From an uncultured Azospirillum sp. (lineage in GTDB: Bacteria; Pseudomonadota; Alphaproteobacteria; RF32; CAG-239): a stretch of DNA of 59,956 nucleotides. The DNA lies in contig CAMYUM010000009.1 in NCBI GenBank assembly GCA_947301965.1, forward strand, positions 1 through 59,956, written 5' to 3'. Below the pieces are notes generated by a model. The model was not told where the DNA came from. It saw only the letters and a list, made by a program, of their open reading frames with translations, and made no database searches. Shown one piece after another: positions 4,913 to 54,693 of this stretch. Within the stretch, counting starts at the first letter, position 1; each line of letters opens with the position of its first letter. The translations under genes and the position numbers were made by a program.

Positions 4913-5146
4913 ATGAGATTATTGATTACTTTGGCAACGTTAATTGCGTTGATTTTTGCGGTTGCATGGTGGGGATATGATATTGAACCGAAGGCTCTTT
5001 ATTATAAAACGATTAATGCCGTAAAATCCGCAGTAACAACGACCGAAAAAGGTACTTCAAATGTTAGTGACGGCGCTTCACGTTTTTCGGATGTAATGAA
5101 AAGCCGTTACAATAGTCAGGATATGACCGAACCTACAATGCGTTAG
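4913..5146 (+). CDS. Small membrane-anchored protein, 77 aa
   Basis: A clear SD (GGAGG, 7 nt before the ATG) supports this start. Residues 2-20 (RLLITLATLIALIFAVAWW) form one hydrophobic segment, either an uncleaved signal anchor or an N-terminal membrane helix. The remaining roughly 55 residues are polar, Ser/Thr/Lys-rich and probably periplasmic. I recognise no family. A strong terminator overlaps the region just past the stop codon, so it is probably monocistronic. Confidence 0.6.
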   Translation: MRLLITLATLIALIFAVAWWGYDIEPKALYYKTINAVKSAVTTTEKGTSNVSDGASRFSDVMKSRYNSQDMTEPTMR

Positions 5147-5160
5147 TTGAGTTTGGACTT

Positions 5161-5190
5161 AAAAAAGCTCCGTGAAAGCGGAGCTTTTTT
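5161..5190 (+). terminator. Rho-independent terminator after the small membrane protein
   Basis: A perfect 12-bp stem (AAAAAAGCTCCG / CGGAGCTTTTTT) with a TGAAAG loop. Confidence 0.9.
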
Positions 5191-5192
5191 GT

Positions 5193-5221
5193 TTGACTTT
5201 TGGACGGGAGAAAAGTACAAA
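5193..5221 (+). promoter_or_regulatory. Candidate promoter of rnhB
   Basis: TTGACT (5193-5198) and TACAAA (5216-5221) are separated by 17 bp. They lie between the upstream terminator and the SD of rnhB, where a promoter is needed. The -10 match is only partial. Confidence 0.4.
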
Positions 5222-5242
5222 GATACAAGAGAGGAGCGCAAA

Positions 5243-6367: not shown

Positions 6368-7483
<1,116 letters not shown>

Positions 7484-7569: not shown

Positions 7570-8643
7570 ATGCAGAAGTATAATAAATTAAGAAAAACGG
7601 AAGAAAATGTACGAACCTATGCGGCCATAGATTTGGGTACGAATTCCTGTCGACTGGTAATCGCTACCCCGACACCGGCATCTTTCAGAATCGTAGAGAC
7701 TTTTTCACGTATTACTCGTTTGGGCGAGGGAATTATTAATGAAAACCGCCTCAGTAAAGATGCAATCAGGCGGACGGTTCGCGCCTTAAAGATTTGTTCC
7801 GAAGTTGTAAGTGAATATGCTCCGATATATCGGTCACGCTTTGTGGCTACGGCAGCTTGCCGTCGGGCTGATAATTGCAAAGAGTTTTTGAATGAAGTAA
7901 AAAAACAGACCGGACTTAATCTTGAAATTATATCATCACAAGAAGAATCAAGACTTGCGGTTGTCGGTTGCGTGCCTTTGCTTAATCGTAATTTGAAAAG
8001 GCTGATGGTTTTTGATATCGGCGGAGGTTCAACCGAAATATCGTTGGCAAGGGTAACCAGCAGCGGTAAAACTTTTATTGAAGGGTATGTTTCGTTGCCA
8101 TACGGCGTGGTGACGGTGTCGGAGGCTTTTCCGAACAAAGATATGACCAATCTGGCGTATGATACGATTGTTGAGCGTACGCATAAACTTTTGGAAGATT
8201 TTGAAGAAAAACATCACATTTATGAGGCCATAAAAAATCAGGAAATTCAGGTAATAGGTACGTCCGGAACAGTAACGGTTTTGGGGGCAATCCAGCTCAA
8301 TCTAACACGTTATAACCGTTCCGCGGTTGACGGAATTTCAATTACTAAACAAGATTTGGAACATTCAATCACGCGTATAAGACGTATGGGAACCGAGGGG
8401 CGCAAAAAACACCCCTGTATCGGTCCGTTAAAAGCAGATTTGACGATTGCCGGATGTGCAATTATTGAGGGAATTTGCTCGTTTTGGCCGATTTCGGAAA
8501 TTACGGTTGCAGATAGGGGAATTCGTGAGGGAATGTTGCTTGATATGATGCATAATCATAATACAAAAGGGCGCAGACACAATTTTTATCGGCGCGGCAA
8601 GAGGAGAGAAGGACGTGAGGGATACAAGTCTGGCAGCCATTGA
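7570..8643 (+). CDS. Ppx/GppA phosphatase family protein (copy 1)
   Basis: The family hydrolyses polyphosphate or pppGpp using an actin-like ATPase fold. Signature loops are AAIDLGTNSCRL near residues 18-29 and MVFDIGGGSTEISL near 140-153. It is 357 residues long, a short version without the C-terminal HD-like half of long Ppx proteins. The ATG has only a weak upstream AAAAG. The C-terminus ends in a basic tail (RRHNFYRRGKRREGREG) whose coding sequence overlaps the start of a second copy by 29 nt, so the two are co-translated. Which substrate it prefers cannot be read from sequence. Confidence 0.9.
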   Translation: MQKYNKLRKTEENVRTYAAIDLGTNSCRLVIATPTPASFRIVETFSRITRLGEGIINENRLSKDAIRRTVRALKICSEVVSEYAPIYRSRFVATAACRRADNCKEFLNEVKKQTGLNLEIISSQEESRLAVVGCVPLLNRNLKRLMVFDIGGGSTEISLARVTSSGKTFIEGYVSLPYGVVTVSEAFPNKDMTNLAYDTIVERTHKLLEDFEEKHHIYEAIKNQEIQVIGTSGTVTVLGAIQLNLTRYNRSAVDGISITKQDLEHSITRIRRMGTEGRKKHPCIGPLKADLTIAGCAIIEGICSFWPISEITVADRGIREGMLLDMMHNHNTKGRRHNFYRRGKRREGREGYKSGSH

Positions 8644-9556
8644 TTTGGGAACGAATTCGTGCAGATTGCTGATTGCCGATAAAAACGGCAATGAAGTGTT
8701 TAAGAATGCGGTGCCGACCCGCTTGGGCGAAGGTATGGCAAAAAATAATTGTTTTACTGACGAAGCAATGGCGCGCGGTATAGATTGTTTTTGTATGTTT
8801 AAAATGTTTATGGACGAGTATAATGTGCAGAGATACCGTGCGGTTGCAACGGCAGCCTGCCGAATGGCCGAAAACGGAAGCGAATTTGTACATAAGGTAA
8901 AGCAGCAGGCAAATATTGATTTGGAAGTAATTGACGGGTATGAAGAGGCTCGTTTGAACTTATTGGGATCGATGGCAAATGTCAAAGATGAAAATGTAAA
9001 ATATATTGTGGTATATGATTTGGGCGGCGGTTCAACAGAGATTACGTTGGCAACGAAAGAATTAAGGCCTAAAATTTTACACACGGTTTCCATTCCTTGG
9101 GGCGCACGTAACAGTTCAGAAAAATTTGAGCTTAATGATTATGATGAAAATAAGGCTCAAAAGTTAGCATATGAAATAAGCAGGTATAGCAAGAAATTTG
9201 CAGAAGAGGCGGAATTGGATAAATACAGAGATAAGGTTTGTTTTGTGGCAACTTCAAGTACTCCGCTCAGGCTTACGCATATGGTTAAAGGCTGGGATAC
9301 GTACGAAAGGTCAAGAGCCGATGGAGTTGCGGTAGAAACAAAAGATTTTGAACGGGTGATAGCCGCAATTCGTAAAATGAATTTTGAAGAAAGGTTGGAA
9401 CACCCCTGCATAGGTCAGTCCCGAGCTGATATATTTAATGCCGCATGTGTGATTTTTGCGCAGATATATCATGATTTGGGGGCAAAAAAAATTATAGCAT
9501 CGCTGAAAAGCGCAGTTGACGGTATGATAACGGAGTTAATCAATGGCACAGACTAG
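8615..9556 (+). CDS. Ppx/GppA phosphatase family protein (copy 2)
   Basis: This is a second, divergent family member of 313 residues. It starts at a GTG after GAGGAGAGAAGGA inside the end of copy 1. It has AAIDLGTNSCRLL at about residues 7-19 and VVYDLGGGSTEITL near 130-143, so both phosphate-binding loops are kept. The overlap with copy 1 and with rlmE (14 nt) indicates one operon of Ppx, Ppx, rlmE, RsmB-like methyltransferase and a lipoprotein. Tandem copies may split polyphosphate and pppGpp hydrolysis, but this is inference. Confidence 0.9.
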   Translation: MRDTSLAAIDLGTNSCRLLIADKNGNEVFKNAVPTRLGEGMAKNNCFTDEAMARGIDCFCMFKMFMDEYNVQRYRAVATAACRMAENGSEFVHKVKQQANIDLEVIDGYEEARLNLLGSMANVKDENVKYIVVYDLGGGSTEITLATKELRPKILHTVSIPWGARNSSEKFELNDYDENKAQKLAYEISRYSKKFAEEAELDKYRDKVCFVATSSTPLRLTHMVKGWDTYERSRADGVAVETKDFERVIAAIRKMNFEERLEHPCIGQSRADIFNAACVIFAQIYHDLGAKKIIASLKSAVDGMITELINGTD

Positions 9557-53674: not shown

Positions 53675-53752
53675 TGTTTTTCTCCATGATTAATTCTGCT
53701 ACCAATATACTTTATGGCTCATAAAATGCAATAAGAATAAAAATAAAAAAAC

Positions 53753-53808
53753 TTGACAAATGTACAAAATTTTTTCATATTGGCGCCATAAACTAATTAT
53801 TTGGGACT
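53753..53808 (+). promoter_or_regulatory. Promoter and SD-less leader of the carrier-protein unit
   Basis: TTGACA (53753-53758), a 17-bp spacer and CATATT (53776-53781) are followed by ACTAATTATTTG at 53792-53803, 5 nt before the ATG, the same 12-mer and distance as at 5929-5940. There is no SD. Confidence 0.75.
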
Positions 53809-54084
53809 ATGATTAAGAAATTAACTACTCACATTATTCGGCAAGCACTTGAGGAAACCGGGCTCTATCTTTATCGCAACGGGAACGAACTCAGGGAACT
53901 GCACAACAGTCTTGACGATCAGGCTTTTACATGTGCCTCGCTTGTCAATGATTTGTCTCTGGATTCAGTTGATATTGCATCACTGATCACTTACCTTGAA
54001 GACGAAGGTTTTACCTTTGAGCGTAAAGATGTAGCCAAGTGCGAAACCGTCGCTGACCTTATCGCCATTGCAAAAGTCAAGTAG
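53809..54084 (+). CDS. Acyl-carrier-protein-like protein, 91 aa
   Basis: The C-terminal half reads LVNDLSLDSVDIASLITYLEDEGF, which matches the carrier-protein helix II region with Ser53 in DSVD, the phosphopantetheine attachment site. VADLIAIAK at the end matches the final helix. The family carries acyl or amino-acyl groups as thioesters. Here no synthase, AMP-ligase or phosphopantetheinyl transferase gene is nearby. It is an expanded relative of the two units in the next gene (shared LDDQ/CDDQ, ASL/ADL, VADL/VADF patterns). First codons are AT-rich (MIKKLTT), and later codons are richer in C than in neighbouring genes. Confidence 0.7.
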   Translation: MIKKLTTHIIRQALEETGLYLYRNGNELRELHNSLDDQAFTCASLVNDLSLDSVDIASLITYLEDEGFTFERKDVAKCETVADLIAIAKVK

Positions 54085-54086
54085 CC

Positions 54087-54629
54087 ATGGACAGCTGTAT
54101 TGACATTCACGTGGGTTCCATAACCCTCGACATGTTCCGTAATGCCGCTGAGGTCACGCGGGGAGAAGATTATCTCAGAAAGTTCTGCGACGATCAGCTT
54201 GCAAAGGCTGACTTGGTCAAAGATCTCGGACTTGATTTTATCGGTATCACTAAAATCCGGTTGCAGTTGGAAACATGGTATCGCATCAAAATTGAAGAGC
54301 CCCCGACGGATCAGGCATTTAGTGTCGCTGACTTTTGTGCTCTGAAGATAACCCCGGAAGAAGATTATCGCTGTTGGATAACCCTCAGCATGCTTTGCAG
54401 AGCCATTGAGGCCACACGCGGCAGAGATTTTCTCGGCGGGTTCTCCGATGCCAGATTGGCAAAAGCCGATTTACTCAATGATTTAGGGTTTGACTCACTC
54501 GACATTATTGAAACCCAAGTCAACATGGAGAACATGTACAACATCAGAATTCGGGAAGACGGAGCAGAGACAGTCCGCACGGTCGCCGACTTTCTTGCTC
54601 TTGAAGCCCGGTTTAAATCTGGGTACTAA
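54087..54629 (+). CDS. Protein with two tandem carrier-like domains, the first lacking the serine
   Basis: The start is 2 nt after the 53809 gene, without an SD, so translation is probably coupled. Two homologous units are plain: about residues 10-87 (ADLVKDLGLDFIGITKIRLQ) and 97-172 (ADLLNDLGFDSLDIIETQVN). Both share ITLxM, ExTRGxDxL, LAKADL, a DLG motif and VADFxAL. In unit 1 the serine is Phe51; in unit 2 it is Ser137 in DSLD. So only unit 2 could carry phosphopantetheine. The body is C-rich relative to neighbours. The function is unknown; a terminator follows. Confidence 0.7.
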   Translation: MDSCIDIHVGSITLDMFRNAAEVTRGEDYLRKFCDDQLAKADLVKDLGLDFIGITKIRLQLETWYRIKIEEPPTDQAFSVADFCALKITPEEDYRCWITLSMLCRAIEATRGRDFLGGFSDARLAKADLLNDLGFDSLDIIETQVNMENMYNIRIREDGAETVRTVADFLALEARFKSGY

Positions 54630-54637
54630 TTCTCCAC

Positions 54638-54677
54638 AATCCCCCTTAAGCACCGGCGCTTTTGGGGGATTTTTTTA
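54638..54677 (+). terminator. Terminator of the carrier-protein unit
   Basis: AATCCCCC pairs with GGGGGATT around an inner AAGC / GCTT stem, followed by seven T residues. Confidence 0.88.
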
Positions 54678-54693
54678 TAAAAGATAAATAAGT

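Follow-up and report, generated by a model that had tools for sequence, protein, structure and literature searches.

A two-gene carrier-like operon with a Ser-to-Phe unit belongs to a lineage-specific set of stand-alone carriers in small-genome Alphaproteobacteria

Few small proteins have been studied as thoroughly as acyl carrier proteins (ACPs), whose serine is regarded as indispensable. What, then, does a carrier-like unit do when this serine has been replaced? The locus studied here raises the question because the middle one of its three carrier-like units has a phenylalanine at the serine position. The locus lies in a stretch of 59,956 nucleotides (hereafter the window), which is an entire contig of a 1.29 Mb genome that is 100% complete. 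A preliminary description, made from the letters of this stretch, saw in the locus an orphan trio of active, inactive and active units that could act as a scaffold, perhaps as a phage-type regulator.

Three carrier-like units in a two-gene operon

ORF1 and ORF2 form a two-gene operon with three carrier-like units, which read Ser, Phe and Ser at the cofactor position (Table 1). The two genes are separated by only 2 bases between the stop of ORF1 and the start of ORF2, and the three residues and their codons are where the preliminary description had placed them. Sites comparable to the promoter-like site upstream of ORF1 also arise in shuffled sequences (mean 2.6); its TTGACAAATnTACAAAA recurs upstream of the syntenic operon in a genome of the same genus (G008). 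The terminator was found by folding and is absent from the list produced by a simple consensus scan. Codon usage of ORF1 and ORF2 is atypical, less typical than that of their neighbours, and the GC3 of ORF2 is 0.54 versus 0.31-0.44 in the neighbouring genes.

Table 1. Features of the carrier-like locus, with positions in the window
Feature	Position	Strand	Description and evidence
Promoter, sigma-70-like, TTGACA-17-CATATT	53753..53781	+	10/12 consensus bases
ORF1	53809..54084	+	91 aa, one carrier-like unit with Ser53; PF00550 22.7 bits against a cut-off of 20.8
Ser53 codon TCA (ORF1, DSVD)	53965..53967	+	putative phosphopantetheine site; sequence and alignment to relatives
ORF2	54087..54629	+	180 aa, two carrier-like units in tandem; PF00550 27.2 bits
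D1, middle unit (first half of ORF2)	54114..54353	+	Phe51 at the Ser position; profile of relatives, tree
Phe51 codon TTT (ORF2, DFIG)	54237..54239	+	serine position; sequence and alignment
D2, last unit (second half of ORF2)	54366..54626	+	DSLDIIE with Ser137; PF00550 22.5 bits
Ser137 codon TCA (ORF2, DSLD)	54495..54497	+	putative phosphopantetheine site; sequence
Terminator hairpin (54638-54671) and T run	54638..54677	+	-21.1 kcal/mol, z -2.62

The internal duplication of ORF2, first noticed from the shared TRG, LAKADL and VADF, was borne out by a comparison of D1 and D2, which are 46% identical over 76 residues (E 2e-21). ORF1 and D2 pass the cut-off of the Pfam PP-binding model, D1 has no match to it, and the ORF1 and ORF2 units reach none of the NCBIfam ACP cut-offs. 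Against a profile of relatives from other genomes only, ORF1, D1 and D2 scored 31.5, 34.2 and 48.1 bits, compared with best scores of 15.2, 11.1 and 10.4 bits, respectively, among 2000 shuffles of each. D2 also scored 34.0 bits against a profile of AcpP proteins. The direct score of D1 against the AcpP profile was not above chance (8.7 bits, best shuffle 10.3), and its link to carriers therefore runs via the relatives.

The two halves of ORF2 also differ at the positions that surround the serine. D2 preserves AcpP positions D35, S36, L37, D38 and E41. In D1, S36, D38 and E41 are lost, and Gly53 and Lys56 replace the usual Asp and Glu (DFIGITK versus DSLDIIE). In E. coli ACP, that Asp and Glu are part of the surface recognised by AcpS and the partner enzymes. 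Two structure models reached pLDDT values of 42.8 and 35.2, so the assignment of a carrier fold rests on profile homology. The best 60 matches of the family profile in the PDB were all carrier proteins by name. Profile homology places the three units in a single carrier family specific to the lineage; two of them have the putative cofactor serine and the third lacks it.

The same site in related species

The corresponding interval of G008, flanked by GatB/YqeY and the C-terminus of a DUF4105-like gene, has a two-gene operon of its own. Its genes (L031:4719-4967 and 4985-5239) encode single units, both with DSLD. The interval contains no ACP genes in G009, G002, G001, G006 and G011, some of which have other small ORFs there. 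Both of the most closely related species (G009 and G002) lack the locus, which is thus dispensable in the genus.

In the phylogenetic tree, all window and G008 units fell into one group of six sequences (support 96/83). Within the tree, ORF1 paired with the first of the two G008 genes (99/95) and D1 was sister to D2 (100/98). The deep branches remain open because the sequences are short. The interval beside GatB/YqeY (window 53675-54693) is variable in the genus: two species have ACP genes there, and further short ORFs found in it (G009, G002, G001 and G007) resemble small membrane proteins.

A family-wide set of stand-alone carriers

A profile search of 152 genomes of the bacterial family revealed a maximum of 11 carrier-like domains in one genome (G137). 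At least three such domains were present in 31 of the 110 genomes with a completeness of about 90% or more, and the domains were concentrated in three genera (g3, g40 and g1). Many of them share an N-terminal signature, roughly K-x-ITLxxhRxAL followed by SDEeLLxAxLxxDLGLDSLD. Members with this signature reach 110 bits inside the family. Among the matches listed for 385 genomes across the class, those outside the family reached no more than about 53 bits, with at most three matches per genome; family sequences had served to train the profile, and this class-wide count is therefore biased towards the family. P0002 as a single-sequence query found no relative in genomic or viral contigs. One of 25 proteins matched Csn2 in PADLOC (E 0.0011), which we judged to be a chance match.

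Most of the genes occur singly or in groups of two or three, flanked by unrelated genes that include groEL, secA, ribosomal protein genes and era (neighbour names were read from the sequences by eye). Some relatives are syntenic across species, for example beside groEL in G014 and G130. No pathway enzymes were found beside the relatives among the neighbourhoods examined. Some orphan carriers of the family (L028:6894-7343 and L103:6085-6552) have a long extra N-terminal region, with about 60-90 residues before the carrier domain.

A set of stand-alone carriers has thus multiplied in one family of small-genome Alphaproteobacteria. We found no description of this expansion in the open-access literature, and it is apparently undescribed so far. 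The view of the trio as an orphan holds in that no pathway is linked to it, but the trio is not a lone oddity, as it belongs to a family-wide set. This lineage-specific ACP-like set with its conserved serine-less members is a more interesting result than the trio itself.

Repeated loss of the serine under purifying selection

The serine is not missing throughout the relatives, in keeping with the initial reading of the units as carriers. Its position is occupied by Ser in 47 of 64 signature domains, by Asn in 10, by Glu in 6 and by Phe in 1. The 17 domains without serine represent at least three separate losses. One is D1 of the window, whose sister D2 retains the serine, and another is unit 2 of the tandem protein L183, for which the L098 orthologue retains it. 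The third is a supported group of 15 (99/82) that comprises two types, GN (LxMGNIRVANVxIELQR) and DE (LGMDE). The genes for the two types are adjacent in three genomes (L164, L171 and L180), as if they act together.

Pfam barely detects the GN type, and its direct profile comparison with AcpP gave only 30%. Profile comparisons gave 98.7% between AcpP and the serine-containing orphans, 99.4% between these orphans and the GN type, and 99.1% between the GN and DE types. The GN type was found at 12 loci among about 85,000 prokaryote genomes. All 12 lie in assemblies with Alphaproteobacteria, Rhodospirillales/Rhodospirillaceae or proteobacterium as their title, and several of these are named as rumen isolates; the bacteria probably belong to the RF32 / CAG-239 group of GTDB.

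Four pairs of serine-less orthologues had dN/dS values of 0.13, 0.18, 0.20 and 0.16. These values indicate strong purifying selection, and the serine-less proteins are therefore not decaying. Four serine-containing pairs ranged from 0.11 to 0.16, and a further, closely related pair had 0.40. The dN/dS between D1 and D2 was 0.25 with synonymous sites near saturation, and selection on D1 itself is judged by this comparison only. The serine was thus lost repeatedly in the family while the proteins were kept by selection.

The host genome and candidate partners

The true acpP of the genome lies elsewhere (G000:C3:25195) and is followed by fabF and a mltG-like gene. This fabF is the only PF00109 ketosynthase in the genome. 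The initial statement that no biosynthetic enzyme is nearby was right for the window, where no enzymes of fatty acid (FAS), polyketide (PKS) or non-ribosomal peptide (NRPS) synthesis were found near ORF1 and ORF2. The genome encodes one phosphopantetheinyl transferase, AcpS, and three AMP-binding proteins, each with the PlsC-type acyltransferase fusion known from Aas. With one AcpS, one ketosynthase and AMP-binding proteins only of the Aas type, no PKS or NRPS was found for the trio to serve. No match to the LYR protein family (PF05347) in the genome exceeded the cut-off.

Several other features of the genome were recorded. The Aas-like proteins (L187:733-2961, L188:718-2928 and L189:1087-3870 on the minus strand) are its sole PF00501 proteins, and one of them has a weak MFS match. 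A second orphan ACP-like pair (L026:6799-7065 and 7183-7437) follows a ugd-like gene on another contig (G000:C2, about 44.8-45.4 kb). This pair has no pathway genes beside it, nor does it show the N-terminal signature that the window trio carries. In the window, two Ppx/GppA-like phosphatase genes are adjacent at 7570-9556, apparently a tandem duplication.

Proposed role and alternative explanations

We tentatively read the locus, with slightly less than even confidence, as an auxiliary, free-standing acyl-carrier-like operon that acts in trans, with active Ser53 and Ser137 units and the Phe51 unit as a docking or scaffold module. Ser53 and Ser137 would receive 4'-phosphopantetheine from the single AcpS, and the holo units would carry acyl groups to serve one or several housekeeping enzymes whose genes lie elsewhere. 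The Phe51 unit, predicted to be unmodifiable, may bind the same partner as a fixed module for docking or scaffolding, beside the active Ser137 unit. More generally, the family would provide carrier-like docking in trans and would not build chains within a cluster. Of the preliminary interpretation, the scaffold part is reasonable, as a scaffold-like role fits the selection on the serine-less relatives. Going further, and with less confidence, it is possible that this bacterial family has turned the ACP into a growing set of small, free-standing docking proteins, whose operons and tandem proteins mix cofactor-bearing units with units that are permanently without cofactor, and that part of the set acts by contact alone.

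The units could instead be dedicated acyl carriers for lysophospholipid acyltransferase/acyl-ACP synthetases of the Aas type, with D1 helping the tandem protein. Aas-type enzymes recycle fatty acids into membrane lipids. All three AMP-binding proteins contain a PlsC-type acyltransferase, so that enzymes likely to load an ACP are plentiful in this genome. There is also a precedent, as specialised pairs of ACP and acyl-ACP synthetase occur in Rhodobacteria (PMC9386255). However, carrier and AMP-binding counts were uncorrelated across 110 family genomes (Spearman 0.09, p 0.33; counts copied by hand, with genomes not among the AMP-binding matches listed set to zero), and five genomes with at least three carriers had no AMP-binding protein among the matches listed. 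This explanation, which also leaves the serine-less families unaccounted for, is in our view unlikely.

We consider it quite improbable that the units are ACP duplicates in relaxed drift, with the Phe unit as a decaying copy. The absence of the locus from the closest species, the atypical codon usage and GC3 and the high sequence divergence of the relatives would all agree with drift, but the low dN/dS values and conserved motifs of the serine-less orthologues speak against it. Moreover, D1 retains an open frame and its family score, and a promoter-like site and a terminator are present at the locus. Patchy presence and atypical composition would likewise suit cargo of a phage or mobile element, such as a regulator of host acyl transfer or a decoy for it. 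ACPs are indeed found in some phages, and PHROG 5934 matches 20 of 25 relatives. Yet no phage or mobility genes surround the locus in the window, none of the viral contigs searched encodes a relative, and the single matching phage record is marginal (E 0.09). No convincing terminal repeats flank the locus, and the relatives occupy chromosomal sites beside housekeeping genes, some of them syntenic (groEL in two genomes). The proposal of a phage-type regulator is therefore not supported, and a phage or mobile origin is highly improbable; the suggested decoy role towards a host phosphopantetheinyl transferase, of which the genome has one (AcpS), is conjectural, and the preliminary interpretation as a whole is partly supported.

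Comparison with known carrier systems

Like AcpP (TIGR00517, PF00550), the trio has a PP-binding core, DSL in D2 (DSV in ORF1), an acidic composition and about 90 aa per unit. Unlike AcpP, it scores below the NCBIfam ACP cut-offs, has a longer N-terminal region and does not adjoin fabF. By equivalog score and by acpP-fabF neighbourhood, the trio is thus not the AcpP of type II fatty acid synthesis. With no linked enzyme, it also falls outside the PKS/NRPS carrier domains. Phage ACPs (PHROG 5934 and 4154) resemble the trio in being small, stand-alone and without pathway genes, but the window locus is chromosomal and no viral contig was found with the signature.

Extra stand-alone ACPs are known, as four papers describe for Enterococcus AcpB, rhodobacterial AcpR and Pseudomonas/Ralstonia (PMC6509188, PMC9386255, PMC5686131, PMC9542644). 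The trio is similar in that it provides stand-alone carriers besides the one for FAS. AcpR, however, adjoins its synthetase and target enzyme, whereas the window trio has no nearby partner. The window set further differs from these auxiliary ACPs by its tandem units, some without serine.

The closest parallel to the Phe51 unit is the mitochondrial ACP of Plasmodium falciparum (PF3D7_1208300), which has Phe at the serine position. This protein is essential, and its binding to Isd11-Nfs1 does not require the cofactor (PMC8547962). With the Plasmodium protein as its starting point, an eLife search in 2021 detected ACPs of the serine-less kind in Apicomplexa and a single related alga only (PMC8547962). 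D1 shares with this protein the Phe for Ser, a non-modifiable residue in a conserved protein; purifying selection was shown for the serine-less relatives and, for D1, by comparison with D2 only. The Plasmodium protein is eukaryotic and organellar and has an LYR-protein partner, whereas D1 is fused to an active unit in a genome without an LYR protein by Pfam, and its partner must therefore differ from that of the Plasmodium case. In the bacteria studied here, serine-less members are under selection beside serine-bearing kin, and the window genome has a single AcpS and no polyketide machinery. It can now be tested whether bacterial carriers function purely as binding modules, and for which housekeeping enzymes they do so. 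If the family does form a docking-protein set, this set would be a bacterial counterpart of the cofactor-free Plasmodium ACP.
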